Made by a program: the position numbers and the translations under genes
Notes under the pieces: model-generated
What the model was told of the DNA's origin: nothing
What the model saw: the letters and a program-made list of their open reading frames with translations, nothing else
The model's database searches: none
Part shown: positions 2-25,491 of the stretch, one piece after another
How positions within the stretch are numbered: the stretch's first letter is position 1
How the letters are laid out: every line of letters starts with the position of its first letter
Virus record (IMG/VR): IMGVR_UViG_3300025890_000140
Location: 1 to 25,793 of that record
Direction: 5' to 3' (one strand)
DNA length: 25,793 nucleotides
Origin: a virus

Positions 2-538
2 AAAGAAAAGATTAAAAGAAAAGTAGGTAGACCAAGCAAAGCTGATTTGGAGTTAAGAGCAAGGGAAGCTGAAAAACAAAGAGTAATTGAATGGGTTGTA
101 GTTATAGGTATTATTCTTGTTTTAGGTATTTTTACTCAAAATGTTAAAGCAGATGAAATGGTGCATAAATTTAAATCGCCATCATTTTCTGGCATAGGTG
201 CATCTGCACATTATCTTACTATTGAAAACCAACAATTTAATCGTAAACAAGCGCTCAAAGCGGAAATAAAAGCATTACAAGACGAAATAGAAAGAGATAA
301 AGAAAATACAACTCTTGCAAGATTTATAAGAAACTTAGAATCCAGGATTTATGCCCAACTATCAAGACAGCTAGTAGAAAACTTATTTGGCGAAACTCCA
401 AGTGATAGTGGTGTGCTAGAGTTAGAAGGTAACAGGATAGAGTATAATGTTGTAGATGGAATAATAACTTTAAAAATAACAGATTCAGATGGCAATACGA
501 CAACTATATCCCTTCCTATTGGTAGCTTTACTTTCTAG
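2..538 (+). CDS. csgF: CsgF-like curli assembly protein (5' end off the window)
   Basis: CsgF is the curli accessory protein whose N-terminus plugs the CsgG pore and whose C-terminal part nucleates fibres at the cell surface. The match is family-level and visible by eye: a membrane/signal segment (VVVIGIILVLGIF), a likely cleavage after VKA, then HKFKSPSFSG, like the F-x-NP-x-F-GG start of mature CsgF. A charged linker, a helix (IYAQLSRQLVENLFG) like the CsgF Ile/Leu-rich helix, and an Asp/Thr-rich beta C-terminus ending SLPIGSFTF follow. The frame is open to the left edge with no ATG; the TTG at 47 lacks a visible ribosome site, so the true start is probably outside. The visible cytoplasmic tail contains KRKVGRPSKAD, an AT-hook-like basic motif absent from ordinary CsgF. 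The gene overlaps csgG by 50 bases. Confidence 0.85.
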   Translation, partial: KEKIKRKVGRPSKADLELRAREAEKQRVIEWVVVIGIILVLGIFTQNVKADEMVHKFKSPSFSGIGASAHYLTIENQQFNRKQALKAEIKALQDEIERDKENTTLARFIRNLESRIYAQLSRQLVENLFGETPSDSGVLELEGNRIEYNVVDGIITLKITDSDGNTTTISLPIGSFTF

Positions 539-1352: not shown

Positions 1353-2004
1353 TAACGAAATATATGTAGATCAAGCTGGTGCTACAGCAAACATAGACTT
1401 AGAACAGTTAGGATCATCTAATATTATTGGCGGCTTACAATCTGTTGCAGGCACACTTACAGCCTTAGATTTAGATGGATTAAACTTAACGCTAGATATA
1501 AACCAAATAGGTAATACTAATAAATTTCTTGGTGATATCTTAGGTGATAATATTACTGGCTTTTTTGAATTTGATGGAGATGGTAATAACTTTACTATAC
1601 AAGCCGATCCTACAGATACTTACGGTATTGATGGCTCAGACTATAACGTAGATGTAACTGGTAGTTCTAACAACTTTACCTTAGATACAGGAACATCTGC
1701 ACTTGCAGGCGACCTTGATCTAGACTGGATTATTAACGGTGACAGCAACACATTTGATTTTGATATAAACTATGATGGTGCTACTAACTATGTAGATGTA
1801 GATGGAGATAGCAATACAGTAAACTTTACAGGAAGCGGATATGCGGGTGGATACTTCTATCTTGACCAAACAGGAAACAGCAGAACATTCAACATCATAC
1901 AGTCATCAACTCTTGCTTCTGATTGGTTACAGATTAACTCTACTGGTTCTAACGGTACTGTTTGTGTCGTTCAGAATGATGGCGGAACAACTACAAGCTG
2001 TTGA
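1294..2004 (+). CDS. Secreted curlin-repeat-like (putative amyloid fibre) protein
   Basis: The 236-aa protein has a clean Sec signal peptide (basic MKNLK, hydrophobic core, cleavage after LYA near residue 18). The mature part is acidic and rich in Gly, Asp, Asn and Thr, with repeated short strand-turn units: Q-L-G-S-S-N (38-43), Q-I-G-N-T-N (71-76), G-D-G-N-N-F, G-S-S-N-N-F, G-D-S-N-T-F, G-D-S-N-T-V and Q-T-G-N-S. This recalls the curlin Q-x4-N beta-arch repeat, although several units carry Asp where curlin has Gln. It ends with two Cys (CVVQ...TSC). Its place directly after csgF-csgG makes it the obvious export substrate, so fibre-subunit function is an inference from repeats plus context. 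A repetitive secreted beta-helix adhesin is the main alternative. It overlaps csgG (59 bases) and the FecR gene (164 bases). Confidence 0.7.
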   Translation: MKNLKLLIAIMIVSPLYAADNEIYVDQAGATANIDLEQLGSSNIIGGLQSVAGTLTALDLDGLNLTLDINQIGNTNKFLGDILGDNITGFFEFDGDGNNFTIQADPTDTYGIDGSDYNVDVTGSSNNFTLDTGTSALAGDLDLDWIINGDSNTFDFDINYDGATNYVDVDGDSNTVNFTGSGYAGGYFYLDQTGNSRTFNIIQSSTLASDWLQINSTGSNGTVCVVQNDGGTTTSC

Positions 2005-3034
2005 CGTAGGGAGCATATCTGAACTAAAAGGTTCAGCTCAAATAGTAAGAGACAAGCCATATAAAGCTACAGAGTCTTTTGATATACAACAAAATGATGA
2101 AGCAGTTACGACTAATGGTCGTATGGCTATTACCTTTCTTGATGATTCTAAAGTAAAGCTTACCGAACACTCTCAGCTAACTATAGATGAATATATTTTT
2201 GATCCTAATCCTAGTAAGTCTAAAATGGCCATTACTTTTGGTCTTGGTACAGCTAGGTTTATTACAGGTAGTTTTAATAAGATAGATAAAGCTAATATAG
2301 ATCTTAAAACTCCAACAGCAAATATAGCAATAAGAGGTACTGATTTTACAGTTACAGTAGATGAAACAGGAAGAAGTTTATTAATACTGCTACCAGATGA
2401 ATTTGGTATATCTAGTGGAGAAATTATTGTAACTACAGCTATGGGTACGGTTACACTTAACAAACCATACGAAGCTACAACAGTAGATGTTTTTGAAAAA
2501 TCACCTAGCTCACCTGTAATCTTAGACCTAACACTAGATCTTATAGACAATATGCTTATTGTTAACCCACCTAAAGAAGAGGTCGTTATAGAAGAATCTA
2601 TACAAGCAAAAAAGAAAAACATACTAGACTTTGATGGTTTAGATGAGGACTTTTTAGAAGAAGACTTCTTAGACTCAGAGCGAGAGCTAGAGTTTACAGA
2701 GCTAGATATAAACTATCTTGATGTAAACTTCTTAGAGGACTTGCTAGATGTCATAGACGCATTACAAGAAATAAAACAAGAAGATCAGTTAGCTCAAGAT
2801 GCTACATCTACCAATATAGTTGGCACTCAACTAGGACAGGATTTAAAAACGCAAGTAACATCTTTTATAACAGGAGAAGTATTAACACTTATGCGTAGTG
2901 TTAGCGATACAGCTAGAGTAGATATAGATTCTTCTGGAAGCTATACTGTAATCTTTATACAAGATGGGACATCTAATATTATTAAAGTAAATGGTGGTAA
3001 TGGCAGCACTATAAAAATAACTCAAAGTAATTAA
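1841..3034 (+). CDS. Secreted FecR-domain protein with curlin-like C-terminal tail
   Basis: The FecR-type domain spans about residues 54-220. Its signatures are VGSISELKGSAQIVR, LTEHSQLTIDEYIF and the classic PTANIAIRGTDFTV. An Asp/Glu-rich linker (about 246-318) follows, then a C-terminal module ending IKVNGGNGSTIKITQSN that resembles a curlin repeat (Q374-D-G-T-S-N379). The ATG at 1841 is favoured because AGGAAG lies 5 bases upstream and because this start supplies a hydrophobic signal/anchor (about 23-44, LLLLIGYRLTLLVLTVLF). Starting at the ATGs near 1973-1976 would remove all export signal. That signal is encoded inside the 3' end of the curlin-like gene in another frame. FecR periplasmic domains usually pass signals to a partner; here the next gene is a CHASE2 cyclase, joined by a TAATG overlap. 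Domain call is firm, role is inferred. Confidence 0.85.
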   Translation: MRVDTSILTKQETAEHSTSYSHQLLLLIGYRLTLLVLTVLFVSFRMMAEQLQAVDVGSISELKGSAQIVRDKPYKATESFDIQQNDEAVTTNGRMAITFLDDSKVKLTEHSQLTIDEYIFDPNPSKSKMAITFGLGTARFITGSFNKIDKANIDLKTPTANIAIRGTDFTVTVDETGRSLLILLPDEFGISSGEIIVTTAMGTVTLNKPYEATTVDVFEKSPSSPVILDLTLDLIDNMLIVNPPKEEVVIEESIQAKKKNILDFDGLDEDFLEEDFLDSERELEFTELDINYLDVNFLEDLLDVIDALQEIKQEDQLAQDATSTNIVGTQLGQDLKTQVTSFITGEVLTLMRSVSDTARVDIDSSGSYTVIFIQDGTSNIIKVNGGNGSTIKITQSN

Positions 3035-4785
3035 TGAAACGACTATTATTACCTATACTTATATTACTATCACTACCTTTAATATTTCAAAGCACCCCTA
3101 CAGAAATATTAAAGTTAAAAATATTTGATACTTTTGTAACAACGCCAGAACCTTCTGGTAATTTTGTAATACTTAATATAACTGAAGAAGATGTTGCTAA
3201 TGAAGGGGGATGGCCATTTCCTAGAAGAAGTCTTGCAAAAATTCAAGTAGATCTAATTAATGCAGGAGCTATGGGAGTTGGTTGGGTTATAGGATTTCCA
3301 CAAGCTGATCGTATGGGTGGCGATGAAACTTTTGCTACTACATTAGGTTATGCACCATCTGTATTAGCTATGTTTGAAAATGCAAATGGTAAATATCCTA
3401 AAACAACTGGAACAGTTATAAAAGGTAATGATGTTGGCGGCATGTTTACACCTGGTGTTATACAAAATATTGATATTTTGCAAAATCAATCAAACCAAGG
3501 TATAGCAAGTGCACCAGTTGATATAGATAACTTAGTCAGAAGAATACCATTATTATTAAAAACACCAGATGGATATGTATCTTCTTTTGGTACAGAAGTT
3601 TTAAAAGTATTAACAGGTGCTAAAACTTACATTATCACTACAAATGATAATGGTATACAAGAGATATCAGTCAGAGGAATACCACCAGTTAAAACAGATA
3701 GTCTTGGTCGTAAGTGGATTAGTTGGGTTAATACACCACAAACAAATTTAAAAGAAATGGATGTAGCAGGTAAATTTGTTTTTGTTGGAGTCACTGCCCC
3801 AGGAATCATGCCTCAAATTGCAACTCCGGTTGGATTATTAGAGCCACATAAAATTCAAGCAGCATTATCTGAGTCAATTTTGTTAGAAAAGTCTCCCTTT
3901 ATTCCAGATTTTGCTCTTGCGTTAGAAATTTTAATTTTTGTAATATTTGTGTCGTTGACATGGCTTGTAATTAATTATCTTGGTATAACCAAAGGCGTAA
4001 GTCTGGCTATAATTTTACTCTTTACTACAAGCCTTACAGGAGCTTATAGTATTCAAAAAGGCTATTTAATAGACTTTTCGTGGACTTTTGTATCACAATT
4101 CATTACTGGTGCGATAGCTTTCTACTTAAACTTTAGAAAGCAGTTTAAATTGCGTCAACAAATTAAAAAACAATTTGAACATTACTTAGATCCAAGACAA
4201 GTTAAAAAACTACAAGACAATCCTGGATCATTAGTTTTGGGTGGAGAACGAAGATATTGCACATTTTTATTTACAGACGTTAGAGGATTTACGGCAATGT
4301 CTGAAAAGTTAGAGCCAGAAGAAGTAACTAAAATTATGAACAAAGCATTAACAATTCAAGCTGATGCAGTAAAAGAATACGGAGGTATGGTAGATAAATA
4401 CATAGGTGACGCAATGATGGCTATTTTTAATGCACCAATAGACTTACCGAATCATGAAACTGCTGCCGTCCTTTGTGCTAAAGAGATACAAGAAAACATT
4501 AAAAAAGCAGATATTGATGTTGAAATAGGAGTAGGGGTTAATACTGGTTATGCAGTAATTGGGAACATGGGTAGCAATACTAGGTTTGATTATACTGCTA
4601 TAGGTGATGCTGTTAATCTTGCAGCAAGACTTGAGAGCTCAACAAAGGAGGTTGGAGAAGATATTGTTATAGGTTATGATACTATCAATGCAAAAGATTT
4701 TAGTGATCAAATAATTCTAAAAGAACTTAATAGCATAAAGGTAAAAGGAAAAGAAAAATCTATAAATATTTATACAATCTTATGA
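3034..4785 (+). CDS. CHASE2-domain class III adenylate cyclase (membrane)
   Basis: The predicted 583-aa sensor makes cyclic nucleotide, most likely cAMP from ATP. Layout: N-terminal membrane helix (about 3-19); extracytoplasmic CHASE2 domain (about 25-285), including F-PRRSLAKIQVDLINAGA and FVFVGVTAPG; three membrane helices (about 293-316, 320-338, 345-366); a linker; and a cyclase catalytic domain (about 405-560). Catalytic residues look complete: metal-binding Asp415 (FTDVRGFT) and Asp459 (DKYIGDA), purine-specifying Lys455 and Asp519 (RFDYTAIGDAVN), Asn528 and Arg532. The Lys/Asp pair points to ATP, not GTP. No truncation or frameshift is seen. It is coupled to fecR (TAATG) and to the holin-like gene (ATGA). 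FecR-CHASE2 cyclase neighbours occur in bacterial genomes, so transfer of a ready-made pair is plausible. cAMP output and ligand are inferred. Confidence 0.93.
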   Translation: MKRLLLPILILLSLPLIFQSTPTEILKLKIFDTFVTTPEPSGNFVILNITEEDVANEGGWPFPRRSLAKIQVDLINAGAMGVGWVIGFPQADRMGGDETFATTLGYAPSVLAMFENANGKYPKTTGTVIKGNDVGGMFTPGVIQNIDILQNQSNQGIASAPVDIDNLVRRIPLLLKTPDGYVSSFGTEVLKVLTGAKTYIITTNDNGIQEISVRGIPPVKTDSLGRKWISWVNTPQTNLKEMDVAGKFVFVGVTAPGIMPQIATPVGLLEPHKIQAALSESILLEKSPFIPDFALALEILIFVIFVSLTWLVINYLGITKGVSLAIILLFTTSLTGAYSIQKGYLIDFSWTFVSQFITGAIAFYLNFRKQFKLRQQIKKQFEHYLDPRQVKKLQDNPGSLVLGGERRYCTFLFTDVRGFTAMSEKLEPEEVTKIMNKALTIQADAVKEYGGMVDKYIGDAMMAIFNAPIDLPNHETAAVLCAKEIQENIKKADIDVEIGVGVNTGYAVIGNMGSNTRFDYTAIGDAVNLAARLESSTKEVGEDIVIGYDTINAKDFSDQIILKELNSIKVKGKEKSINIYTIL

Positions 4786-8988: not shown

Positions 8989-10272
8989 ATGAATAGAATA
9001 GACAACTCAAATAAAGGCATAGCAGGTTTAGGAAGAGGAGAAGATTCTATGCTTGCCCACGTAGCACCAGGAGAAATGGTAGTCCCACCAGTTATCTCTC
9101 CACAAACACAAGAAATAATTAAAAGAGAAATGATGTCTGCTGGACTAGATCCCAATGAATATACTGTGGGTCAAGGCATGTCTATTAACCCTATTACAGG
9201 TATGGCAGAGTTTGGCTTCCTTAAGAAGCTTGGTAAAAGTTTAAAGAAAGTAGTTAAAAAGGTAGCCCCCGTTGCTATGTTTATTCCTGGAGTTGGTACA
9301 GCACTCGGTGGAGCATTAGGTGGTCTAGGTGGACTAGCTGCAAAAATACCAGGCATAGGCGGTGCATTAGGAAAAGCTGGAACCTTTATAGGATCAAATA
9401 TTTTAAGCCCTTTAGCTGGAGCTGGTATTCCTGGTATATCTTCAATAGCTGGAGGAATTACAGGTAATAGTTTTGGTGGATTTAGCAATATTATGGCAGG
9501 ACTAAAAAACCCTTTAGCTGGTGGTATGTTTGGAAAAACTGGATCTACTTATGCAGGTGGGCCTGCTGCTGGAAAAGGATTAGCAAATAAATTTGGTTTA
9601 GGGAGTGGCACACCAGGACAGGTTGCTGCATCAGGTCAAGCTCAACAAGCCCAACAAGCATTACAGGCAATGACACCAGCACAAATAGCTGCAAACCCAC
9701 AGGCATATCAACAATTATTAGCTCAAGCTAATGCTTCATCAGGATCTCCTTTTGGAAATTTATTTGGTGGAGGCGGAGGTCTTGGCGGTTCTTTAGGAAT
9801 GGCTGCCCTTGCTGCTTTATACGGTAAAGCTGTTAAAGATGACTATTCACGTAAAGAAGGTGGACTTAAAGATATAAGGCAATCTGTAAGACCAGATCTT
9901 ATGCCAGCTCCTACATTTACAGGTTTTGACTTAGGTGTTAGAAAAAATGTTGCTATGGGTGGCTTACAAGAACTACGACCTAAATTTGCAATGGGCAGAT
10001 CAGTAATGGCTAACGAATTAGATATGCGTATGGGTGGTCCTTCTATAGGTCCAGGAACAGGTAAAAGTGATGACATACCAGCTATGTTAAGTGATGGTGA
10101 GTTTGTAATGACTTCTGCTGCTAACAATGGTTTAGGTGGATTTAAAGTAACAAAGACAGAAACAGGTATAGAATTAATACCAAATGGTGAGCCAAACAGA
10201 CAGAAAGGTGCAAAGAATATGGACAAACTTATGAAAACCTTTGAGAATTTTAACAAAATAGGACAAGCATAA
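8989..10272 (+). CDS. Gly/Ala-rich virion protein with tape-measure-type motifs
   Basis: A 427-aa protein. It carries two copies of a short phage-tail motif: G-R-G-E-D-S-M-L-A-H-V-A-P-G-E-M-V near the N-terminus (about 15-31) and KSDDIPAMLSDGEFVMT near residues 360-376. The motif type (D-x-[IV]-x-A-x-L-x-x-G-E-[FM]-V) is common in tape-measure and tail-tip associated proteins. Between them lie a Lys-rich amphipathic stretch (LKKLGKSLKKVVKKV, about 78-92), followed by Gly/Ala/Leu-rich hydrophobic segments (about 93-180) that could insert into membrane, and a Gln/Ala-rich region. It begins 6 bases after the oxygenase gene and ends in a TAATG overlap. Likely an internal or ejected virion protein; no enzyme signature is visible. 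Confidence 0.6.
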   Translation: MNRIDNSNKGIAGLGRGEDSMLAHVAPGEMVVPPVISPQTQEIIKREMMSAGLDPNEYTVGQGMSINPITGMAEFGFLKKLGKSLKKVVKKVAPVAMFIPGVGTALGGALGGLGGLAAKIPGIGGALGKAGTFIGSNILSPLAGAGIPGISSIAGGITGNSFGGFSNIMAGLKNPLAGGMFGKTGSTYAGGPAAGKGLANKFGLGSGTPGQVAASGQAQQAQQALQAMTPAQIAANPQAYQQLLAQANASSGSPFGNLFGGGGGLGGSLGMAALAALYGKAVKDDYSRKEGGLKDIRQSVRPDLMPAPTFTGFDLGVRKNVAMGGLQELRPKFAMGRSVMANELDMRMGGPSIGPGTGKSDDIPAMLSDGEFVMTSAANNGLGGFKVTKTETGIELIPNGEPNRQKGAKNMDKLMKTFENFNKIGQA

Positions 10273-12851
10273 TGCGTTTTAATAGAGGATCTATTATGGC
10301 TCCTATAGGTAGCCCTACTAAAATGACGGGCAGAGATCAAATGTCTATTGGTGGTCTTGGCGGTGGTATGGACTTTGATACAAGCCAATTCCTTACAAAA
10401 TCAGATCTACCTACGTTTGATACAAGCCAATTTCTTACTAAAAGCGATATGCCAACAGCTTTTGATCCATCACAACTAGAACAACAGATAGGTGGATTAC
10501 AAAAACAAATAGGCAACATACCTTCTTATGACGACACAAATATAAGAAATATGATAGGCAACATACCTCAGTTTGACGACTCTGCCATCAGAAGAATGAT
10601 AGAGGATAATCAAAGAAGTATAGGCAACATACCTAGCTTTGATCCTAGTAGTTTACAATCACAAATCGAAGCTAACAAAAACTTACTAAGCAACATACCT
10701 CAATTTGACGACTCTGCTCTACGACAGATGATAGAGCAAAACAAAAATAGACCTGGGTTTGATGCTAGTGGTTTACAGTCTCAGATTGGTGGTATAGAAG
10801 ATAGACTAAGTAATTTACCTCAGTTTGATCCGTCTAACCTACAAAGTGGTATTGCTGGATTAACAGACAGACTAGATAATTTAAATATACCAGAGTACAA
10901 GGCACCAGACCTATCTGGATTTGCTAGAAAAGAAGACATACCATCTTTTGATAGAAATGCTTTAAGAGATGAATTATTTAAAGACATAACAGGAAGCATA
11001 AAAGTTCCTGAAGCACCTATTTTTGATAGAGATGCACTGATAAGAGATATTAGAAGCGGTATTGATATACCCAAACCACCTTCTTTTGATAGAGATGCTT
11101 TGATTGAAGATATTAGAGGTGGAATTAACATACCTTCGTTTGACAGAGAAAAACTAATAGAGGACATTAGAGGTGGAATTAATATACCTCAAGCACCTGC
11201 TTTTGATAGACAAAAGCTTATAGAAGATATAAGAGGCGGTATTAACATACCTCAAGCACCAGACTTATCTGCTTTTGATACTAGGTTTGCAGATATGCAA
11301 AAAAGAATTGATGAGTTATCACAAAGACAAGCACCACCACAAAATGAAAATCAACTAAAACCTGAAGATTATATGGGAAGAAAAAACTTTGTAGGCAGAC
11401 CTCCTCAACCAGTTCTTCAACTAGATCCTCTGGGTAGATCCATATCTCCGGTAGCACAGAATATTGATATTACTGGCGGACTAGGTGACTTCGTACCACC
11501 TCCAGGATATAAAGAAGGGCCAACAGAAGGCGGCCCAGCAGAAAGACCTGGTGGACCTATATCAATAAGACCAGACTTACTACCACCCAAGCGTGATGAT
11601 TTCATGTCAATCGGTGGACCTGGAGGTGGAATAAATGATCCTAGAATGCAGCCTATGCCAGAGCCTATTAATGCAGATCCTGGCGATTTTATGCCAAGAA
11701 CCCCAGAAGTAGGTCTTGCACAACCAGCACCAGTTCAACCTGCTCCTACCGAGCCAGCTGCAGTGGCGCCTACGGCTGGAGCAGACCCTACACAAACACA
11801 AATGCCTATGGGTGCAATAGATCCTGTGTTATTACAACAAGCTACATCTGAGACACTAACAGACCCATTAATTAGATCTCTATACTTTGGTACACAAGAT
11901 TCACCAGGGTTCTATCAGCAACTACAACAAGCTGGTGCTAACTTAATTGGTAGTGACGTACCATTACAACAAACAGCAGGTTTATCTCCATTAGAGCTAT
12001 TAGCAAGACAAAAAGCTGTTGCTGGTCTTGGTGGTTTTGAACCATTCCTACAACAAAATAGAGATTTAGTAGATCAGGCTATAGCACAATCAAGAAGGGC
12101 TGAAGAACTACAAGATCCTTATTACACACAAGCTGAAGAAATATACAAAGATACTATGGGTGCTTATGACCCAAGCATGACTCAGCAGTTCTACAATCCT
12201 TACGAGGATGCAGTGGTACAAAAAACCATACAAGATGTAATGGAAGCTGGAGATAAGCAAGATATAGCCTCAAGAGCTCGTGAAATTAGTTCTGGTGCCT
12301 TTGGTGGTAGTAGAGCAAGACTAGGTGCTGAAGAACGTAGAGAGTCCCTAGGAGAAGGTTTAGCACAGGCATTAGGCAACATAAGATCACAAGGCTTCCA
12401 AAGTGCACAAGCAACTGGATTAGGTGAGTTTGCAAGACAACAAGCAGCTAAGAGAACCGGAGCACAAGGACTTATGGGTATAGGTGTTGGCAGAGGAAGT
12501 GCTGCATCACAACTAGGATCACAATTAGCTGGATACGGAAGCCAGATTGGTGGTATAGGTCAGACACAAGAACAAATGAGAGCAGGACAAAGAGGTGAAC
12601 TATCTGGATATGGTGGTATAGGAAGAGGTATTGCTGAGACTGGTTTAGGTAGAATATTTGAACAACAGGTTGGACAACAGTACAGACCTATGCAAACACT
12701 AGGACAAATTGGTTCTATGCTACCTGGTTATCAAGCATCTGGCACAAAGATTGATTCACAGTATGGTATGCCAACAGATCCTTCAGCAGCAGGACTAGGT
12801 GCAGCATTTAGTGCCTACGGTGCTTTAGCACCAAGACAAGGACAAACCTAA
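10272..12851 (+). CDS. Long repeat-containing virion protein (FD-x3-L repeats)
   Basis: An 859-aa protein. Residues about 34-340 are a run of degenerate repeats of 20-30 residues built on P-x-FD-x3-L-x-x-x-I, for example FDTSQFLTKSD (twice), IPQFDDSALRQMIEQ, and late copies FDRDALIEDIRGGINIP that are nearly identical. A Pro-rich linker (about 350-530) follows, then an Ala/Gln/Gly-rich helical region (about 560-850) with ISSGAFGGSRARLG and long Q-A-G-x-G segments. MSIGG-x-GGG occurs twice (about 24-32 and 444-452). The layout, elongated repeat stalk plus helical C-terminus, fits a tail fibre or internal-virion/ejection protein. Both ends overlap neighbours as TAATG. I do not recognise a named family. 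Confidence 0.6.
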   Translation: MRFNRGSIMAPIGSPTKMTGRDQMSIGGLGGGMDFDTSQFLTKSDLPTFDTSQFLTKSDMPTAFDPSQLEQQIGGLQKQIGNIPSYDDTNIRNMIGNIPQFDDSAIRRMIEDNQRSIGNIPSFDPSSLQSQIEANKNLLSNIPQFDDSALRQMIEQNKNRPGFDASGLQSQIGGIEDRLSNLPQFDPSNLQSGIAGLTDRLDNLNIPEYKAPDLSGFARKEDIPSFDRNALRDELFKDITGSIKVPEAPIFDRDALIRDIRSGIDIPKPPSFDRDALIEDIRGGINIPSFDREKLIEDIRGGINIPQAPAFDRQKLIEDIRGGINIPQAPDLSAFDTRFADMQKRIDELSQRQAPPQNENQLKPEDYMGRKNFVGRPPQPVLQLDPLGRSISPVAQNIDITGGLGDFVPPPGYKEGPTEGGPAERPGGPISIRPDLLPPKRDDFMSIGGPGGGINDPRMQPMPEPINADPGDFMPRTPEVGLAQPAPVQPAPTEPAAVAPTAGADPTQTQMPMGAIDPVLLQQATSETLTDPLIRSLYFGTQDSPGFYQQLQQAGANLIGSDVPLQQTAGLSPLELLARQKAVAGLGGFEPFLQQNRDLVDQAIAQSRRAEELQDPYYTQAEEIYKDTMGAYDPSMTQQFYNPYEDAVVQKTIQDVMEAGDKQDIASRAREISSGAFGGSRARLGAEERRESLGEGLAQALGNIRSQGFQSAQATGLGEFARQQAAKRTGAQGLMGIGVGRGSAASQLGSQLAGYGSQIGGIGQTQEQMRAGQRGELSGYGGIGRGIAETGLGRIFEQQVGQQYRPMQTLGQIGSMLPGYQASGTKIDSQYGMPTDPSAAGLGAAFSAYGALAPRQGQT
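10371..11283 (+). repeat. Coding tandem repeats, FD-x3-L-x3-I type
   Basis: This part of the 859-aa gene encodes at least ten degenerate units beginning with Phe-Asp. Early copies (10371-10450) are a near-duplicate pair, FDTSQFLTKSD-[LM]-P. Late copies (about 11080-11270) share the core LIEDIRGGINIP three times, with similar DNA, showing recent internal duplication at this end. Early and late unit types differ, so the array has probably grown by local duplication more than once. Confidence 0.8.
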
Positions 12852-17700: not shown

Positions 17701-18201
17701 GGTGAAAGTGGTAGAGGTGGTAGTGCTGGTGGATTGGTTGCTGCTGGACTTGGTGCTGCTGTAGTTTTTGCACCTTTACAAACCTTACCAGCTTTAATAG
17801 GTTTATCAATAGTAAGAAAGGTATTTGAAAATTCATTTTTAGTTGGGTTATTAACTAAGACAGATCCAGGTAGAATTGCACAGTTGATTCAAGGAGTTGA
17901 AAGAGCGGCAAGACAATTTGGAGTTAGAATGGTTGACGGCACTTATGTTGAACAAACTGTCGACTTTATAGGTGAGGGTATAGATGAGGGTATAAACTTG
18001 GGTAAAACAGCAGTTGGCATTACAGATGAAGAAATATCTAATGCTACCCAACAACTAAGAAACCAAGTAACTGCACCAATTAAACAATTACCAGGACTAC
18101 CACAAGTAACGCCAGTACAAACACCACAAACACCAACAGATCCTTTATCGCAAGAAAGATTAGACTTTGCAGAACAGGTAGCTGGTAGACCTGTACTTTA
18201 G
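14776..18201 (+). CDS. Very large putative internal-virion/ejection protein
   Basis: At 1141 aa it is the longest gene here and the last of the + strand late operon. It opens with a compact domain (about 1-40, IFDVEIAPGVVETVEAKNA then DEARKKVKAL) of the sort that heads many phage core proteins. It has a Gly-rich possible membrane segment near 200-212 (MAGVGSAGGKAVEE), and long Lys/Glu/Gln-rich helical stretches through about 260-980. A Gly/Ala hydrophobic region at about 977-1016 (GGSAGGLVAAGLGAAVVFAP) could insert in membrane, followed by a Pro/Gln-rich tail. Size, helical content and end-of-operon position match T7 gp15/gp16-like ejection proteins, but no lytic transglycosylase motif is evident to me. 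Its stop overlaps that of the opposing primase gene. Confidence 0.6.
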   Translation: MQIFDVEIAPGVVETVEAKNADEARKKVKALIAQGAMSPFYDELFFDYETGVDNKRLRRNLAMAETTEEQNKVLTNIIQATQKSDTASEQDNILVNEVGEQGFTRNTKGQIALTPYGMKQLGFGKLIKTETLTDGSIINKNTVIDENDFNLKTGDLSDFAGVAGPIIGTIAAFSPQLKVLKGLEFISKRPVFSRMFMAGVGSAGGKAVEEEVIETLEGFQLQERDAINNLYKQEFVLGSVAQGLGEGVFKIYQTFLGARAPTADKRILFQQNQNRSVADVMKLDVELGKEATEKQIKKAIKDGKVKKFNWKMDKTTGAVPSQQTLQRELPGRGQSIAEQVIGNNRDEKNAAYLMAELNYIMRGVKDEKAALDSYISQSQKGRLDESINEKLQSLRSKETDVTNRLEELLKEVTEDALEVGNYGNIPSRREFGETIKETVSTARAFVTREMGAEYKAIDNSMKDMRSIFKMEKDDFGELQLVGRARPGQLDERGMQAKDITVPKGGEEQAVANTINATINDTANTYFEKSLFRIKSFQDDFPGYDLSIQDPNVKGGTIKQIEEKFKELYKMTTPKATEQGQGISLFQLRNLVKDLDLYIKESPLPTPQRELLYDLKRFIDAYGVDNPKSIMTDLTKESLATINTRLKRQGITMTREQDQTIKNSLNLLRDTNRKNAQRMQPFDNLNIQKIISNASKGAHPPDEIYQRVFLGGSAKDLDDLFRATRNYDEYLKAIGKEPVTERRLKAQLKKKFFDDAVYKATDGETQRINFTTFARQFDNFDKDMMNNGKLDVLFRNTVGNTSGRLVRETIRNINRVQPNLKPQQLRDLVDDFTGTNIGLDASDQGKAFIRGLTDLANESEKVLKFRANRAISQLPEKGIEATTDTIFRPGNATVINNLKGTVDADVFNSIQQASMMKLLKRSVDFNGKGKINDIFKPGNLETALNSYGDETLEAMFGKEVTQGLRAFQREIDVLTKGESGRGGSAGGLVAAGLGAAVVFAPLQTLPALIGLSIVRKVFENSFLVGLLTKTDPGRIAQLIQGVERAARQFGVRMVDGTYVEQTVDFIGEGIDEGINLGKTAVGITDEEISNATQQLRNQVTAPIKQLPGLPQVTPVQTPQTPTDPLSQERLDFAEQVAGRPVL

Positions 18202-20321
18202 TTATCTTCAAAGAAGGTAGGATCTACAGCTACAAACCTTTTAGCTGGTCTGCCTTTACCACCGACTTTAATCTCAACCTCTTGTATCTCCCCTGCGTTC
18301 TTAAGCCTTTCAATAATCTCTTTTACTTCATAAGACTTCATACTTCTAAATAGTTCGTGTCTATCTACCTCTCGTTTAGATATGCCCTCGCCATTCCTGG
18401 ATCTAATAAATGATAGTACCTGTTTAATCTTAGACTCGGTTGCACTACTTGCCACCTTGTCTCTACATGCTTCTATAAACAATAAGTCATAGTATCTAAT
18501 AAAATCTACAGCCCAGCGTGTCACATCTCCTGTAATGGTCATAGCATCAGCATTAGTTGCCAGAGTACATAACAATGCCATACGCATAGCTTTCTCTTTA
18601 GAACGGCTTAGAAGAGGCTCTAGGTTATCTTTTTCAAGTATATCTTGTCGTTTAACTATCTCTCTAGCAAAGTCTTGTAGGATCTCTTCTGATTCCCTGT
18701 CAAAGTTTAATACTATCTGATCAAGATCTAACTCTGCATTATCCCTGGATAGATCACTCATAGTTCCTCTTTGTCTTCTAACATAGTTTACCCAGTTGAC
18801 AATAGAGGTTGGTGGCGATTTGAATCTTTTGAGTTCACCCACTCTCCTTGGCTCTGTAGATTCAACGACTACAAAACGGTTTAGGAACCCGTCTGCAATC
18901 CTGCCACCATTTAACGCACTGTAAAAATTCTTAGGTACTGATAAGCCAACCAATGTAATTGCTGGTTTGTGAGTCACACGGCTCATCATCTGTTCTTTGT
19001 ATTGTTCTTGGACATTCATAAGTGAATAGTTATCTGGTCGCAAAGTACCATGGCAACGACCCCAAGCTTCCATAAGTGTTTGTATGCCATCTTCTTTATT
19101 GGTATTACCTGAATTACTTATGGCTTCTAATCTTTTACCAAACTCATCCATTATGGTTATCTGTGTTGGTCGCATCTTTAATACCGAATGCACAGCACCA
19201 CTTGATGTATAACCATCTCCTACAACAAGCTTGTCATGGTCTGAAGCATTTAAAACTGACTCTACAAATGTTTTTATATTCTCTTTACCCTGACCTGACT
19301 TAGCTATACCCATGAAATACATAGATGAAAAGTTATTCATGTTGGTTCTGTAAATACGACCACAGGTGACACTGGTTAATGCTAATGCACCAACAAGTGA
19401 TAGCTCTGGTTGAGGTACTTGTGCTATCTCTTCACAAAACTTAAACATGTCTTTAAGAAGGCCTGGAGGATTAAATAGATCTTTTGGTTTTTGTATGGTT
19501 TCTGTGGCTTGTATAAATAATGGTGCTATCTTGTTTTTTCTATCGTGTGTACTTTTGACGCTCTCTACTACGCCATCTATCTCTGTCTGTGGTAAGGGTG
19601 GATTGTTATTTTTGTTCCAGTTTTGTAGAAAGATCTTTACAAATTCTGTATTGACATTTTTAGATATTAGGTAGCCTGCAATTCTTGCAGCTCCATCATT
19701 CCTGGATCCTTCTAATACACCATCTAATGAGAAGGGTGCAGTTTGAACTCCTGTATCTGTCTTTGGTACGCCAGTTATCTTTTGAAACTCAACCTCTGTA
19801 AAGTCTGGTAAATCATTGTGATCATAGATCTTCCAGTCCGGGAAGGTGACAGGTTTATATACTTGTCCGTTTGCATGTCTGTTCCAAGGTGCAATTATTA
19901 ATCCACCAACTCCTCTAATATCTATGAGTCTTTCAATGGGAGTGTCGTTAGTTCTTCTTGTAGCAAAGGTAGTGTAGTTCTCTGGGTTGTTATAATAGTA
20001 ATGCATACCCTTACCAGTAATAACTTTGAATGGACAAGCAGGCATATTCTTTTCTACCCAGTCCATAGCCTCTGGAGAGTCAGCATCAACAACCACAAAC
20101 TTACCACAGACAAGTGCAACCTGTAAGTTGTCTCTGCCCTTAAACCATGATTCTACAAGGCTTCTTTCAGGTCTTGACTGTTTGTATTGCTCCCAACTGC
20201 CTAGAAAAGATGGTGGCTTTTTGTTGGATCTTTGTAGAGGTACAACATTATAGCCTTCATCATAATAGGCAAGTGCTTGCTCTAAGGATGTGTCGTCCTC
20301 AGTTATATTGAGCTGAAACAC
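18198..20321 (-). CDS. Primase-polymerase/helicase fusion (Prim-Pol plus DUF3987-like ATPase)
   Basis: A 707-aa replication protein. The N-terminal archaeo-eukaryotic-type Prim-Pol domain (about 10-170) carries Asp79-x-Asp81 (VVVDADS), His107 (GKGMHYYY) and Asp134 (DIRGVGG), the expected catalytic set. A primase C-terminal-like helical segment (about 195-260) follows. The ATPase/helicase domain (about 290-560) has a loop GIAKSGQGKE (339-347), where the usual Ser/Thr after GK is Glu, and Walker B ITIMDEFG (Asp392-Glu393). The C-terminus (about 640-700) looks like a small winged helix (ISKREVDRHELFRSMKS) and ends basic. Such proteins prime and unwind at phage/plasmid origins. The start is GTG, 1 base after the Cro-like gene, without a strong ribosome site of its own, so translation is probably coupled. 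Confidence 0.87.
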   Translation of the reverse strand: MFQLNITEDDTSLEQALAYYDEGYNVVPLQRSNKKPPSFLGSWEQYKQSRPERSLVESWFKGRDNLQVALVCGKFVVVDADSPEAMDWVEKNMPACPFKVITGKGMHYYYNNPENYTTFATRRTNDTPIERLIDIRGVGGLIIAPWNRHANGQVYKPVTFPDWKIYDHNDLPDFTEVEFQKITGVPKTDTGVQTAPFSLDGVLEGSRNDGAARIAGYLISKNVNTEFVKIFLQNWNKNNNPPLPQTEIDGVVESVKSTHDRKNKIAPLFIQATETIQKPKDLFNPPGLLKDMFKFCEEIAQVPQPELSLVGALALTSVTCGRIYRTNMNNFSSMYFMGIAKSGQGKENIKTFVESVLNASDHDKLVVGDGYTSSGAVHSVLKMRPTQITIMDEFGKRLEAISNSGNTNKEDGIQTLMEAWGRCHGTLRPDNYSLMNVQEQYKEQMMSRVTHKPAITLVGLSVPKNFYSALNGGRIADGFLNRFVVVESTEPRRVGELKRFKSPPTSIVNWVNYVRRQRGTMSDLSRDNAELDLDQIVLNFDRESEEILQDFAREIVKRQDILEKDNLEPLLSRSKEKAMRMALLCTLATNADAMTITGDVTRWAVDFIRYYDLLFIEACRDKVASSATESKIKQVLSFIRSRNGEGISKREVDRHELFRSMKSYEVKEIIERLKNAGEIQEVEIKVGGKGRPAKRFVAVDPTFFEDN

Positions 20322-20322
20322 T

Positions 20323-20670
20323 TTAAGCTTCTGTGTCTAGTATTTCAGATATGGGTCCATAAATAGACTCATAATCTAAACGACCTTCAGTTGCTCGTAT
20401 AATTTTTTTTGCTTGATTAATAGTTGGTTGTCTGTATCCATATCTCCAAGACTTACATGATGCTTCAGAACAATCAAACTCTGCCGCAGCTTTTGCTTGT
20501 CCTAAAAATTCTATATAATCTCTAAGTGAATATTTTTTAACCCTCCTATCGGTGTGGTTTGGTTTGATTCCCATAGTTTCAAATTCCTTTAGTTTTCTTG
20601 TTGCTAGTGTCTTTGTTCTAAAATAATAATTCGCTTGCCAGGTTTGGTCTTCTTTATTGATGTTGTCCAT
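20323..20670 (-). CDS. Small HTH protein, Cro-like repressor candidate
   Basis: A 115-aa protein. The segment at about 57-92 (LGQAKAAAEFDCSEASCKSW then RYGYRQPTINQAKKI) reads as a Cro-type helix-turn-helix: A-K-A-A-A-E-F first helix, S-E-A-S-C-K-S-W recognition helix, then the conserved Y-G-x-R-x-P turn and A-x-x-I. The tail RLDYESIYGP resembles the end of Cro proteins. Residues 1-50 are basic. The ATG at 20670 follows GGAGAAG at good spacing. It is divergent from the Sak4 gene across a 102-base region with a promoter and inverted repeats, the classic place for a self-regulating early switch. DNA binding is likely; regulatory role and operator are inferred. Confidence 0.72.
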   Translation of the reverse strand: MDNINKEDQTWQANYYFRTKTLATRKLKEFETMGIKPNHTDRRVKKYSLRDYIEFLGQAKAAAEFDCSEASCKSWRYGYRQPTINQAKKIIRATEGRLDYESIYGPISEILDTEA

Positions 20671-20685
20671 TTACTTCTCCTTTTC

Positions 20686-20713
20686 AACATTATGTTAAAA
20701 TAACATTTTACAT
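20686..20713. promoter_or_regulatory. Inverted-repeat operator candidate
   Basis: Three AACAT half-sites lie here: AACAT (20686-20690), its inverse ATGTT (20692-20696), and AACAT (20702-20706). Two perfect dyads result: AACAT-T-ATGTT and ATGTTA-AAA-TAACAT (20692-20706). They overlap the -35 of the rightward promoter and lie just upstream of the ribosome site of the Cro-like gene, so a protein bound here could block both directions. Binding by the Cro-like protein is inferred from position. Confidence 0.5.
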
Positions 20714-20736
20714 ATTGTACTTATCTGTTATATAAT
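20707..20736 (+). promoter_or_regulatory. Sigma70-type promoter for the Sak4-DUF669 operon
   Basis: A -35 TTTACA (20707-20712, five of six consensus bases) is separated by 18 bases from a perfect -10 TATAAT (20731-20736). Transcription would begin near 20743, giving a leader of about 30 bases to the ATG at 20773. The -35 abuts the AACAT dyads. On the other strand a CATAAT (20694-20689) could be the -10 for the Cro-like gene, but no convincing -35 is visible for it. Confidence 0.65.
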
Positions 20737-20772
20737 ATGCAAGTTAAATTTATTACTACAGGAGAAGTAGAT

Positions 20773-21495
20773 ATGGAAATACAAAATAGAATAGTATCTC
20801 CGCAAAAGTTAGTACAGAACCAAGGTGCAAAAATCTTGGTATATGGTATGGCTGGAGCAGGGAAAACTACATTAGCTAAAACCGCACCAGGTAAGGTACT
20901 TGTTATAAGTGCTGAAGCTGGTTTGTTATCTATTAAAGATGCAAACAATGTTGAAGCTATTGAAGTAAAAGAAGCATCAGAAGTTATGGAACTTCACAAT
21001 GCTTTGAAGTCTGGAGCATTACAATACGATACAGTATGTTTAGATTCAGTATCAGAAATAAGTGAGATCTTACTTACATGGGAGAAGTCTCGTAGTAAAG
21101 ATCCACGTATGGCATACGGTAATGTCCAGGAATCTGTGACAAATTTAATGCGTGCATTTAGAGATTTAAATATGCATGTATTATTTCTTTGTAAAGAAGA
21201 TGTGGTTAATGATGATGGCGTATTAAGACACGCTCCTAAAATGGTCGGTACTAAATTAGGCGAATCAATTACATATTTCTTTGATGAAGTTCTTGCACTT
21301 CGCATCATTGAAGATCAAGATGAGGACGGTAAAAATGTCCAAACGAGATGGCTACAAACTACGTATGGTCAAGGCTATAAAGCTAAAGATCGTAGTGGAA
21401 AGCTGGAGGCTTTTGAGAAGCCAAACATAACTGCCTTAATTGAGAAGTTAGGGTTTACATTAACTAACGACAATATAGGAGAAGCAAATGTCTGA
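20773..21495 (+). CDS. Sak4-like RecA-fold ATPase (AAA_24), single-strand annealing recombinase
   Basis: A 240-aa protein. Walker A GMAGAGKTTLAKTAPG lies at about 25-40 and a Walker B-type strand TVCLDSVSEI at about 83-92. VISAEAGLLSI (about 44-54) and QTTYGQGYKAKDR near the end are typical of the phage Sak4/AAA_24 nucleotide-binding family. Sak4 proteins are RecA-core ATPases that anneal or exchange single strands with the help of an SSB. The frame extends to an ATG at 20737, but that start lies next to the -10 box; the ATG at 20773 has AGGAGA 7 bases upstream and is chosen. It is the first gene of a two-gene operon and overlaps the DUF669 gene by 8 bases. Confidence 0.87.
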   Translation: MEIQNRIVSPQKLVQNQGAKILVYGMAGAGKTTLAKTAPGKVLVISAEAGLLSIKDANNVEAIEVKEASEVMELHNALKSGALQYDTVCLDSVSEISEILLTWEKSRSKDPRMAYGNVQESVTNLMRAFRDLNMHVLFLCKEDVVNDDGVLRHAPKMVGTKLGESITYFFDEVLALRIIEDQDEDGKNVQTRWLQTTYGQGYKAKDRSGKLEAFEKPNITALIEKLGFTLTNDNIGEANV

Positions 21496-21952
21496 TTTCG
21501 GTGATGTAGAATTTTTTGATAACTTGGAGGAACTATCATCAGGTGGTGGTGTCCCTCTTGCTCCAGATGGAGAACATAACGCAAAGGTTATTGCTACAGA
21601 CAAATACAAGTCTAAAGCAGGTAATCATACGCTAAAGGTCACATTTCAATTAGATGGCGGTAAGTATCGTGATCATAATGAATGGTATAACCTTTGGGCT
21701 ACTAACGAAGACAACAAAAGAATAAGCACGGAGATATTTACCAGGCTTACGAAAGCTGTTGGCTTTAAGAAGTATCCAGAGAACCATAGCGACTTTGTTG
21801 GCAAGAGACTGGTGTTAAAGACTGAACAGATTGAAGATCAGTTTGAAGGCGACAATGGAGTGGTAAATACTAAGAAGACTAAGATCCGATTGTATTTGCC
21901 AGAAGCTGATTCTGAAATGAGTCCACCAAAGGAAATGGTCCCTCCTTTTTAA
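21488..21952 (+). CDS. DUF669-family protein, probable SSB-like partner of Sak4
   Basis: A 154-aa protein with the DUF669 pattern: acidic N-terminus with FFDNLEE, then LAPDGEHNAKVIATDKYKSK, KVTFQLDGGKYRD, NLWATN and a KKTKIRLYLP strand, suggesting an OB-like beta barrel. DUF669 genes regularly follow phage Sak4/annealase genes. The C-terminus ends PPKEMVPPF; the terminal Pro-Phe after acidic residues recalls the partner-binding tip of bacterial SSB (IPF). Ribosome site AGGAGA precedes the ATG, which lies inside the Sak4 gene. A strong terminator follows 16 bases after the stop. The SSB role is inferred from family context. Confidence 0.82.
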   Translation: MSDFGDVEFFDNLEELSSGGGVPLAPDGEHNAKVIATDKYKSKAGNHTLKVTFQLDGGKYRDHNEWYNLWATNEDNKRISTEIFTRLTKAVGFKKYPENHSDFVGKRLVLKTEQIEDQFEGDNGVVNTKKTKIRLYLPEADSEMSPPKEMVPPF

Positions 21953-23494: not shown

Positions 23495-23517
23495 AATTTA
23501 CTCCTCTATGTGTATAG

Positions 23518-23552
23518 TTGGTATATTATATTAATTTATGTATAATGTCTAG
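23518..23552. promoter_or_regulatory. Divergent promoter pair
   Basis: The 105-base gap between the divergent operons holds two perfect TATAAT boxes. Rightward: 23542-23547 with only a partial -35 (TTGGGT at 23518, 18-base spacer). Leftward: 23531-23526 with TAGACA (23552-23547, five of six) at a short 15-base spacer. The two promoters overlap, so firing of one would hinder the other. The rest of the gap holds the two ribosome sites (GAGGAG leftward, GAGAGG rightward). Confidence 0.5.
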
Positions 23553-23599
23553 TATGCGTAACAACGTAAATACATAAAGAAACTAAGAGAGGTAAAATA

Positions 23600-23803
23600 A
23601 TGAGTAAATCAAACAATCTTTATACAATGATGAGACTTTCCTATGAACAAGCTGTAGATGATTACAACGATAAAAAAGTTGATTCAGTGCTATCAGCATA
23701 CAAGAAATACCATATTATTAATGTTGGTATGGAAGCTTGTGATCCCCAAGGCGAGATAATCAATTTTTATGATGACGATAACAGACAGGAAGCTATGGTA
23801 TGA
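23600..23803 (+). CDS. 67-aa unknown protein upstream of the methyltransferase
   Basis: A 67-aa acidic protein (LYTMMRLSYEQAVDDYNDKK, then VDSVLSAYKKYHIINVG) with a helical N-terminal half and a short beta/acidic end (NFYDDDNRQEAMV). I do not recognise it. The ribosome site GAGAGGT lies about 8 bases upstream, and the stop overlaps the methyltransferase start as ATGA. It is the first gene of the rightward operon; a role with the methyltransferase is possible but not shown. Confidence 0.65.
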   Translation: MSKSNNLYTMMRLSYEQAVDDYNDKKVDSVLSAYKKYHIINVGMEACDPQGEIINFYDDDNRQEAMV

Positions 23804-25491
23804 AGGTACTAAGTTTGTTTGATGGTATGTCTTGTGGTCGTATTGCATTAGATCAACTCGGCATACCAGTAGAAAAGTATTATGCAAGTGAGATAGATAA
23901 GTATGCTATCCAAGTTAGCCAAGCTAACTATCCAGACATAGAGCAAGTGGGGGATATCTGCAACTTAGATCCAAAAGATTACAAAGACATAGATCTAATA
24001 TTAGCCGGATCTCCATGCCAGGGATTTAGTTTTGCAGGAAAACAACTTGCTTTTGATGATCCTAGATCTGCATTGTTCTTTGAGTTCATACGATTATTAA
24101 AAGAAATAAAGCCTAAATACTTCTTGTTAGAAAATGTAAGAATGAAAAAAGAGTTCTTACAGGTTATATCTGAGCAAGTATCAGAGTGTTATCCAGAGAT
24201 CCCTTTCGGAATAGAGCCAATATTTATCAATAGTTCTCTTGTATCTGCTCAATCAAGGCAAAGATACTATTGGACTAACATACCAGGAATTAAGCAACCA
24301 GAAGATAAAGGCATAGTTTTAAGAGACATATTAGAAGATAACTTTGATAGTGATAGAGACAAAAGCTATTGTATTGACGCAAATTACTCTAAAACAGGTG
24401 CAAAACCCCATCATTACAAGGACAAATACCGTAGACAGTTGGTAAATAAACCAATCAAAGTAGGTATGAATGTAGAAGAAGTAAAGGTTAGGAAGCATGA
24501 AGTCAACATATCTGGGCTACAACATCTATTAAGAGAGATGAAGAAAGAGTCTGGTAAAACAAACAAACAGATAGCTGAAGAAACTAATATGCCAGTCACA
24601 AAGGTAGAGCATTGGTTTAGAACTGACAGTAGCTTTGCAATACCTGGGGACAATATATGGCTAAAACTTAAGGAAGTATTGGGTATTAAGACAGATGTCT
24701 TTGATAGAGAAGTCATGGAGTTTGAATACAGAGATGGTGTTTACGAAACAAAACAAAGAGTTTATAGCGAAAATGGTAAATCTCCGACAATCACAGCAAG
24801 TAATACTGAGCAATACATAGAGACTAAGCCCAAAAAAGCTTATGACATACCTAGAGAAATACTTAAAGATAATGAAAGACAAAGGAGAGTATATGATCCT
24901 AGTGGCAAATCGCCAACAATTCTTGGTAGAAGTGATAGTCCAAAGATAACTACACCCAAGCAAATAGGCATAGCAACGGACATTAACGGACATGACATAC
25001 TTAAAAGAGTCTATAGTCCAGATGGTAAAGCACCCACAGTAAACACTTGTCAAGGTGGTAATCGTGAGCCAAAGGTAGTCACTGGTGGTGCATTTCGTGG
25101 TAGAGCCTATGATAAAGATGGTAAAAGAAAGGATCGTGATGGTAGTTCTGTTGCCAATCAAACAACACAGATGCTTGAATTACGCAAAGATGATAAGTCA
25201 AACGCTATAACTACAGTGAATAAGGATAGCCTGGTTGTATCTCCGATAAGAGAGAAGTCTAAAACAGTTAGATCTGGTGGCAGAGGATCTTATGATAGAC
25301 ATGAATGGGATAGTGTTGATGAACTACATTGGCGTAAACTAACGCCTTTAGAGTGCGAAAGACTGCAAACAGTCCCAGATAACTATACAAACCATGTATC
25401 TAACACCCAGAGATACAAAATGCTCGGTAATGGCTGGACAGTTGCAGTTATCAAGCATATCTTTGAGAGTATGGATCATGAAGATAACTAA
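23800..25491 (+). CDS. DNA (cytosine-5) methyltransferase with HTH insert
   Basis: A 563-aa enzyme that would transfer a methyl group from S-adenosylmethionine to C5 of cytosine. Motifs: I FDGMSCGR (7-14), IV SPCQGFSF with catalytic Cys73, VI ENV (111-113), VIII QSRQRYYW (151-158), IX LTPLECERLQTVPDNY (about 514-529), and X RYKMLGNGWTVAVI (538-551). The catalytic half looks DNMT3-like, as in other phages. Between VIII and IX there is a large variable region: an HTH-like segment (about 239-296, SGKTNKQIAEETNMPVTKVE then HWFRTD) and four R-x-Y-x-x-x-GK repeats (320-442), which should form target recognition. No restriction partner is in view, so self-protection of phage DNA is the likely role. 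ATGA overlap upstream. Confidence 0.93.
   Translation: MKVLSLFDGMSCGRIALDQLGIPVEKYYASEIDKYAIQVSQANYPDIEQVGDICNLDPKDYKDIDLILAGSPCQGFSFAGKQLAFDDPRSALFFEFIRLLKEIKPKYFLLENVRMKKEFLQVISEQVSECYPEIPFGIEPIFINSSLVSAQSRQRYYWTNIPGIKQPEDKGIVLRDILEDNFDSDRDKSYCIDANYSKTGAKPHHYKDKYRRQLVNKPIKVGMNVEEVKVRKHEVNISGLQHLLREMKKESGKTNKQIAEETNMPVTKVEHWFRTDSSFAIPGDNIWLKLKEVLGIKTDVFDREVMEFEYRDGVYETKQRVYSENGKSPTITASNTEQYIETKPKKAYDIPREILKDNERQRRVYDPSGKSPTILGRSDSPKITTPKQIGIATDINGHDILKRVYSPDGKAPTVNTCQGGNREPKVVTGGAFRGRAYDKDGKRKDRDGSSVANQTTQMLELRKDDKSNAITTVNKDSLVVSPIREKSKTVRSGGRGSYDRHEWDSVDELHWRKLTPLECERLQTVPDNYTNHVSNTQRYKMLGNGWTVAVIKHIFESMDHEDN
24757..25125 (+). repeat. Internal repeats in methyltransferase target-recognition region
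   Basis: Four units begin R-V/A-Y-x-x-x-GK at residues 320, 363, 403 and 435. Three continue S/A-P-T-I/V and are followed by a variable loop; the spacings are 43, 40 and 32 residues. They occupy the place of the target-recognition domain of C5 methyltransferases. The DNA copies are diverged, so duplication is not recent. Confidence 0.75.

Follow-up and report, generated by a model that had tools for sequence, protein, structure and literature searches.

A candidate Cro-like switch at predicted overlapping divergent promoters between the replication and recombination operons of a marine phage group

Introduction

How might a phage set the balance between replication and recombination when the operons for these two tasks leave one short gap in opposite directions? 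This question is raised by a 102-bp gap in a 25,793-base phage fragment of A+T-rich DNA from a virus record, the whole of which we refer to as the window. A cro-primase operon runs leftward from the gap and a sak4-SSB operon runs rightward. A sequence-only reading of the window had previously described the gap as a Cro-like switch region with one near-consensus promoter and overlapping AACAT/ATGTT dyads. We analyzed the locus in the window and in its relatives, and we suggest that it offers a compact and testable model of how a marine phage group might balance replication against recombination through one regulator, acting at a candidate site that is short, almost unique in each record and recognizable in distant relatives.

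Results

Gene layout in the window and its relatives

The leftward arm begins with a gene for a 115-aa protein (20323-20670, - strand; cro in the following), which was assigned to the Cro/CI-type helix-turn-helix (HTH) proteins from Pfam, PHROG and a structure model, as described below. It is followed by a Prim-Pol/DUF3987 primase-helicase gene (18198-20321, - strand; Pfam Prim-Pol, 3.4e-19; PHROG DNA primase, 1.4e-86), whose GTG start lies one base beyond the cro stop codon, so that cro heads a leftward replication operon. The rightward arm encodes a Sak4-like ssDNA annealing ATPase (20773-21495, + strand; phrog_124, 1.6e-48; AAA_24, 1.3e-24) and a DUF669 single-strand DNA-binding protein, or SSB (21488-21952, + strand; DUF669, 8.9e-7; phrog_378, 1e-8). 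The earlier description of a Cro-like HTH gene and a regulatory gap between replication and recombination operons is thus well supported by the protein families, the fold and the layout in relatives; it did not mention that the HTH gene is linked to the primase. Elsewhere in the window, at 10272-12851, an 859-aa protein with many FDxxxLxxxI-type repeats (recognized by eye) is encoded, without a Pfam match.

We used three queries against viral contigs, namely the Cro-like protein, Sak4 and an 18-row alignment, took up to the best 80 loci per scan, and compared loci L001-L226 and the window. The cro and sak4 genes were divergent in all 218 loci in which both were found. The primase was seen in 216 loci, and in 214 of these it was on the same strand as cro and no more than 60 nt away from it; in the two exceptions, the match starts only at primase residue 129. 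The 218 loci include many overlapping fetches of the same contigs, and it is the 43 distinct gaps, themselves related, that carry weight. Column counts over these 43 gaps use a looser pattern that includes all distinct gaps, and a 40-gap set leaves out L152, L153 and L158, which were missed by a strict pattern fixing several bases. Outside the 218 loci, cro was found without sak4 at contig ends (L003, L168 and L074) and in cultured phages (L162 and L163), and sak4 without cro at contig ends (L115 and L150) and beside other HTH genes (L164 and L165).

The HTH protein

The Pfam Cro family (PF09048) scored 17 bits against the 115-aa protein and did not reach its curated cut-off of 32.7, and it matched 15 of 18 members at E-values up to 0.1 (best, 9.3e-6). 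The transcriptional repressor family phrog_35 also matched the 115-aa protein (E 3.9e-5). Weak matches to Pfam YdaS_toxin occurred in 3 of the 18 members, and weak matches to HTH_3 in five of eight records (the window and seven relatives), each within the cro gene itself. In the structure model, the mean pLDDT is 74 and rises to about 90-95 in residues 51-90; the modelled DNA-binding domain spans approximately residues 46-110, with a long low-confidence helix ahead of it, and has five helices (49-56, 58-65, 69-77, 84-93 and 100-104), mostly at high pLDDT. The top structural match in the PDB was the YdaS N-domain 8co2 (Z 8.3 over 69 residues, rmsd 3.9; Foldseek E 0.013), followed by CylR2, Xylella Cro and P22 c2 at Z 7-8, a level that is common. 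Foldseek returned no match to the model below E 0.001, and a search for solved relatives by sequence returned none below E 0.1. Because the Pfam Cro cut-off was missed and the HTH-fold matches were found, we call the modelled protein a Cro/CI-type (lambda repressor-like) HTH protein and keep it outside the Pfam Cro family.

Among cultured phages, nine records showed a weak match to the 115-aa protein, with 29-46% identity and none over 80% of the protein. The best by E-value was Pseudomonas phage PARCL1pr (46% over 56 aa). This phage is temperate; the matching gene is in the Cro position and diverges from an HTH regulator gene, and an integrase gene follows downstream.

Predicted overlapping promoters

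The near-consensus promoter TTTACA-18-TATAAT of the sequence-only reading is indeed present at 20707-20736 (+ strand). This predicted rightward promoter, Psak, agrees with the consensus at 11 of 12 positions, which is uncommon by chance: when the 102-bp gap was dinucleotide-shuffled 2000 times, 1.55% of the shuffles reached 11/12 on either strand. Its TATAAT is in register in 37 of the 40 tabulated gaps, and transcription would be expected to start near 20743 (+ strand). On the other strand we found a predicted leftward promoter, Pcro, which had not been noticed before (TTGCAT-17-TACAAT, 20714-20742, - strand; -35 box at 20742-20737, -10 box at 20719-20714). With only 8 of 12 consensus positions in the window, Pcro is weak on paper, and the support for this prediction is comparative: the TTG of its -35 box is invariant in 43/43 gaps, the remaining three bases being variable, and five bases of its -10 box (TAC-AT) are likewise invariant in all 43. 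Its start would be expected near 20707 (- strand), which would place the diverging starts about 36 bp apart. The predicted boxes of both promoters occupy the same 36 bp (20707-20736 on the + strand and 20742-20714 on the - strand), and this arrangement is conserved in the relatives.

A second divergent gap of the window, at 23495-23599, has a rightward TATAAT that runs into a leftward -35 box, TGTCTA. This overlapping divergent pair persists, without a TAC-N5-GTA dyad, in 28 of 35 distinct gaps, and these phages may use such overlapping arrangements habitually. To the right of this second gap lies a gene for a 563-aa cytosine-5 methyltransferase (23800-25491); since its family match covers residues 1-558 on a profile of 324 positions, a long insert is likely, and weak HTH matches occur around residues 240-275.

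A candidate operator shared by both promoters

One short sequence, TTTACAnATnGTA (20707-20719), covers both the Psak -35 box and the Pcro -10 box; it contains the dyad TAC-N5-GTA, and we regard it as a candidate operator, O2, from its conservation and near-uniqueness. It occurs in exact form in 32 of the 43 distinct gaps, with one change in eight and with two changes in three (L152, L153 and L158, which read GTTTCATATAGTA), and its core can be recognized down to 52% Cro protein identity (L226). Over the 43 gaps, 7 of the 13 columns of the core are invariant, compared with 1 of 41 fourfold-degenerate sak4 columns; on the earlier 40-gap set, a Fisher test of core versus fourfold columns, chosen post hoc, gave a P value of 9e-6. 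Every invariant column falls within a -35 or -10 box, and given that the pair at 23495-23599 is conserved without the dyad, conservation by itself is no proof of an operator.

The bases that are held in these boxes are more informative. At the third position of the Psak -35 box, T occurs in 38 gaps and C in five, and the consensus G never occurs; at the third position of the Pcro -10 box, C occurs in 43/43 gaps and T never. Both of these positions sit in the dyad arms, so that the non-consensus bases hint at an operator, and the avoidance of the promoter consensus there favours the operator reading over plain promoters. The arms of the dyad are short (only 3 bp each); the dyad is intact in 35 of the 43 gaps, and its left arm is broken in the other eight (CAC in five, TTC in three).

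We also asked how often such a site occurs. O2 is the top site of the window, with 18.7 bits versus 10.1 for the runner-up, and the exact pattern occurs once per record in 20/20 records. In 16 of them, the match lies at the switch, as judged from the locus coordinates of the relatives. In the other four (G016-G019, one clade), the sole exact match falls within the primase gene, at a distance of 1,065 bp from the switch, and the switch copy carries one change; we read the match in the primase gene as chance. Other one-mismatch matches in the 20 records numbered 29, a count that leaves out the 20 exact matches and the four one-change switch copies, versus 21 for a reversed control pattern. Both the recognition helix and the O2 site are nearly invariant among the relatives, and no covariation between the two was seen. 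Given the single exact site per record and its near-unique score, the Cro-like protein appears to act locally, on this gap alone.

The AACAT/ATGTT dyads and a second candidate site

The dyads on which the sequence-only reading had rested the operator are both present, namely AACAT-T-ATGTT (20686-20696) and the 15-bp dyad ATGTTA-AAA-TAACAT (20692-20706). Their role as operators is, however, mostly unsupported. Perfect dyads with arms of at least 6 and a spacer of up to 9 were found in 46% of 2000 dinucleotide shuffles, and the observed number of five dyads (nested ones counted separately) was reached in 17% of shuffles, so that we rejected the dyads as operators by number alone. AACAT-N-ATGTT occurs in 2 of the 43 distinct relatives' gaps; the exact 15-bp dyad, looked for in relatives that keep the gene, is likewise kept in 2/43 only, which is the outcome that the sequence-only reading had itself named as refuting it, and is probably due to chance. 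Consistently, an ungapped 40-gap alignment anchored on O2 showed no invariant column among the 20 just upstream of O2.

The first dyad may nevertheless hold a real site. It contains ACA-N3-TGT at 20687-20695, in the predicted cro leader, which we designate as a clade-specific candidate second operator, O1. This motif is found in 16/16 of the closest gaps (Cro identity of about 83% or more) and in 0/27 of the others, compared with a mean of 0.28 of 43 in mononucleotide-shuffled flanks. It lies outside any promoter box, with its centre 22-24 bp from that of O2 and with five different centres among the 16 gaps. Against fourfold sites, of which 13/70 are invariant, the P value was 1e-4; this is only a guide, because the motif was found post hoc, because the pattern searched for itself fixes the arms, and because the 16 gaps are related.

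Ribosome sites and leader RNA

Near-copies of a ribosome site ahead of both genes had also been pointed out, and GGAGAAGTA is indeed found as the Shine-Dalgarno site of cro (20680-20672, - strand; 20672-20680 in window order) and of sak4 (20761-20769, + strand). The suggestion that they arose by duplication, or that the two genes share translational control, is by contrast unsupported. A third exact copy of GGAGAAGTA occurs at 2873; with up to one mismatch, the window contains 12 copies versus a shuffled mean of 6.7, a count of 12 being reached by 6 of 100 shuffles. The ribosome site of the SSB gene reads GGAGAAGCA, and the sak4 site is not kept as a copy in the relatives, where it drifts, for example to AAAGGAGATTGAGAA. 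In view of this drift, the two sites look like ordinary Shine-Dalgarno sites, and we rejected duplication in favour of ordinary variation. The cro leader RNA folded no better than its shuffles (z 0.12), and a search of the window against Rfam gave no match.

Stand-alone copies of the HTH domain in SAR86

A scan of one genome per species, covering 84,980 species, returned five loci. One of these is TMED104 (L226), a phage-like contig of 53,352 bases in a Gammaproteobacteria MAG, which carries the full switch with 52% Cro identity; according to the genome search, this MAG and the SAR86 genomes belong to one family. The four other loci lie on SAR86 contigs of 267-880 kb and encode a stand-alone HTH domain of 65-83 aa that is 58-77% identical (L227, 8040-8285; L228, 7995-8192; L229, 8019-8270; L230, 7974-8207), with a recognition helix nearly or fully identical to that of the phage protein. 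Sak4 was searched for in these four genomes and was absent. Beside the L228 copy lie an ARPP-1 gene (2.5e-62) and a UDG-like gene, the latter identified from a sub-threshold match (E 0.008), and the surroundings of the other three copies look similar by eye for both genes. The dN/dS values for two pairs of copies were about 0.05 (0.0068/0.143) and 0.13 (0.098/0.743), so the stand-alone domain is apparently under purifying selection. In the family to which the L228 genome belongs, 6 of 107 genomes showed a match, namely the four with the copies, TMED104, and one further genome whose match is weak (38% identity), and a 68-column tree placed the four SAR86 copies among the phage sequences with weak support. 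At the four loci, none of the top-scoring sites was comparable to the operator of the phages, and each of the four genomes contains 0 to 1 exact O2 sites. When eight proteins of the SAR86 cassette were searched against defence families, the only result was one weak Cas6b match (E 0.0025).

These copies hint at SAR86 as the host group and at an uptake of the domain by these bacteria. As speculation about their role, we consider, with considerable doubt, that a chromosomal SAR86 cassette with ARPP-1 and UDG-like genes took up the phage repressor domain, which could then recognize the operator of phages of this group as they enter and shut down their replication and recombination. If true, this would be an immunity-by-repressor device without a prophage. 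The copies suggest a possible link between the phage group and SAR86 and raise an immunity idea that can be tested. The window also encodes, consecutively at 2-4785, CsgF, CsgG, a possible curlin-repeat protein (spotted by eye, without a Pfam match), FecR and a CHASE2-adenylate/guanylate cyclase. A similar curli secretion cluster is described for HTVC023P-type pelagiphages (PMC9599517); that of the window lies beside a different replication module. Taken on their own, these genes would bring SAR11 phages to mind, as opposed to the hint of SAR86 as host. A literature search of limited scope yielded no direct match, either for a curli-bearing SAR86 phage or for a repressor of a SAR86 prophage.

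Discussion

Proposed mechanism and its alternatives

We suggest that the best reading of this locus, and one that we consider reasonably probable, is that a single Cro-like repressor, itself autoregulated, shuts a pair of overlapping divergent promoters. The gene layout is observed, as are the conserved overlapping promoter boxes, the near-unique site and a protein with an HTH fold. Psak, for sak4 and SSB to the right, and Pcro, for cro and the primase-helicase to the left, would be two sigma-70-type promoters whose presumed activities share the same 36 bp, so that on any one template, RNA polymerase at one of them should keep polymerase off the other. Pcro would give rise to the Cro-like protein, which would bind O2 as a dimer; occupancy of O2 would cover the Psak -35 box and the Pcro -10 box, and as the protein accumulates, both operons would be shut, which gives the direction of regulation that we infer. 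In the closest clade, the autorepression would become tighter through binding of the dimer to O1, the additional site within the cro leader.

It is also possible, though somewhat unlikely, that TTTACAnATnGTA is conserved simply as two overlapping promoter boxes and that the HTH protein binds elsewhere or acts otherwise, in which case the palindrome would be a by-product of TTTACA lying beside TACnAT. The confinement of all invariant columns to -35 or -10 boxes, the conservation of the pair at 23495-23599 in the same phages without a dyad, and the broken dyad arm in 8 of the 43 gaps all agree with this. However, non-consensus bases are kept in both boxes, the O2 motif repeats outside the promoters at O1 in 16/16 close gaps, and the window offers no better candidate site. 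That the main Cro operators are instead the AACAT/ATGTT dyads at 20686-20706 seems very unlikely to us: the dyads exist and the first one contains O1, but they occur at chance level in shuffles, their exact forms are found in 2/43 relatives, and none of the 20 columns just upstream of O2 is invariant in the 40 gaps.

Two further explanations appear highly improbable, to about the same degree. A Cro-like HTH protein beside divergent promoters could belong to a lysogeny switch of the lambda kind, in which Cro is opposed by a CI repressor, and weak cultured-phage matches to the protein do sit in phages annotated with an integrase. Nevertheless, no match to tyrosine or serine integrase families was obtained in 8/8 records, that is, in the window and seven relatives of 39-56 kb, none of which is known to be complete. 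No CI partner was found in these seven longer relatives, the HTH_3 matches in the eight records lie only within cro, and the partner operon begins with sak4, not with a repressor gene. We disfavour a lysogeny switch, as integrase family matches are absent from these eight records. The other explanation is that the dyad in the cro leader acts as RNA, through a hairpin, attenuation or shared translational control; the 15-bp dyad does lie within the predicted leader, but the fold score (z 0.12), the lack of an Rfam match in the window and the poor conservation of the dyad speak against it.

Comparison with known systems

The lambda-type switch comprises Cro, a divergent CI repressor, an integrase and three operators between the promoters. 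The present locus resembles the lambda OR/Cro system in having a small Cro-like repressor and a candidate operator near promoters, with sites 22-24 bp apart in the close clade. It differs in that no CI was found in the phages studied here, in that there are one or two candidate sites instead of three, one of them widely conserved and the other clade-specific, and in that the regulator heads a primase operon with sak4 as its divergent partner. In the domain structure, the top match to the HTH domain is the YdaS N-terminal domain of prophage CP-933P (8co2), yet the identity is 22%. A single operator has a precedent in phage PY54, whose Cro is reported to bind only one (PMC4488713). In Burkholderia phage KL1, a regulator gene overlaps the primase gene (PMC3483164).

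Cultured phages provide the nearest gene layouts. Of 11 records examined around Sak4 and primase matches, which are top matches and not a random sample, six show the layout or nearly so. In Idiomarinaceae phage 1N2-2, Alteromonas phage XX1924 and Salicola phage CGphi29, an HTH-primase operon diverges from a Sak4 operon, as in the window. Roseobacter phage CRP-902 is similar, with one gene between the HTH gene and the ATPase; in Bhz54, two genes lie between, and the small protein is without a Pfam match and matches a PHROG repressor at 0.0025. Loktanella pCB2051-A has a weak HTH match, and its divergent arm carries an exonuclease, with no Sak4 in the stretch examined. H40/1 has the HTH gene, but its primase is on the opposite strand. 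The layout was not seen in the stretches examined of Seurat, Mcat17, Erebus and Vibrio 1.030.O, and the primase of Mcat17 lies outside that stretch. The cultured phages also differ in that their HTH genes fall in HTH_3, YdaS or P22_Cro where a Pfam family is reached, and their gap sequences look unlike that of the window (compared by eye, unaligned).

A literature search of limited scope gave no direct match for a Sak4/primase switch of this type. A close regulatory parallel is with plasmid pLS20, for which overlapping divergent promoters, Pc and Pr, are described with the regulator Rco (PMC4207663); experiments there showed repression of one promoter by Rco, dual control of its own (activation as well as repression), and DNA looping between two operators. 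The likeness lies in overlapping divergent promoters, an HTH regulator encoded by one arm and control of both arms, which is inferred in our case; the -10 and -35 boxes of both predicted promoters share the same DNA here. The differences are that the phage gap has no visible partner site for looping and that its arms are replication and recombination operons. Taken together, this kind of phage gene switch is already known, and the region looks like a new example of it, not a new kind.
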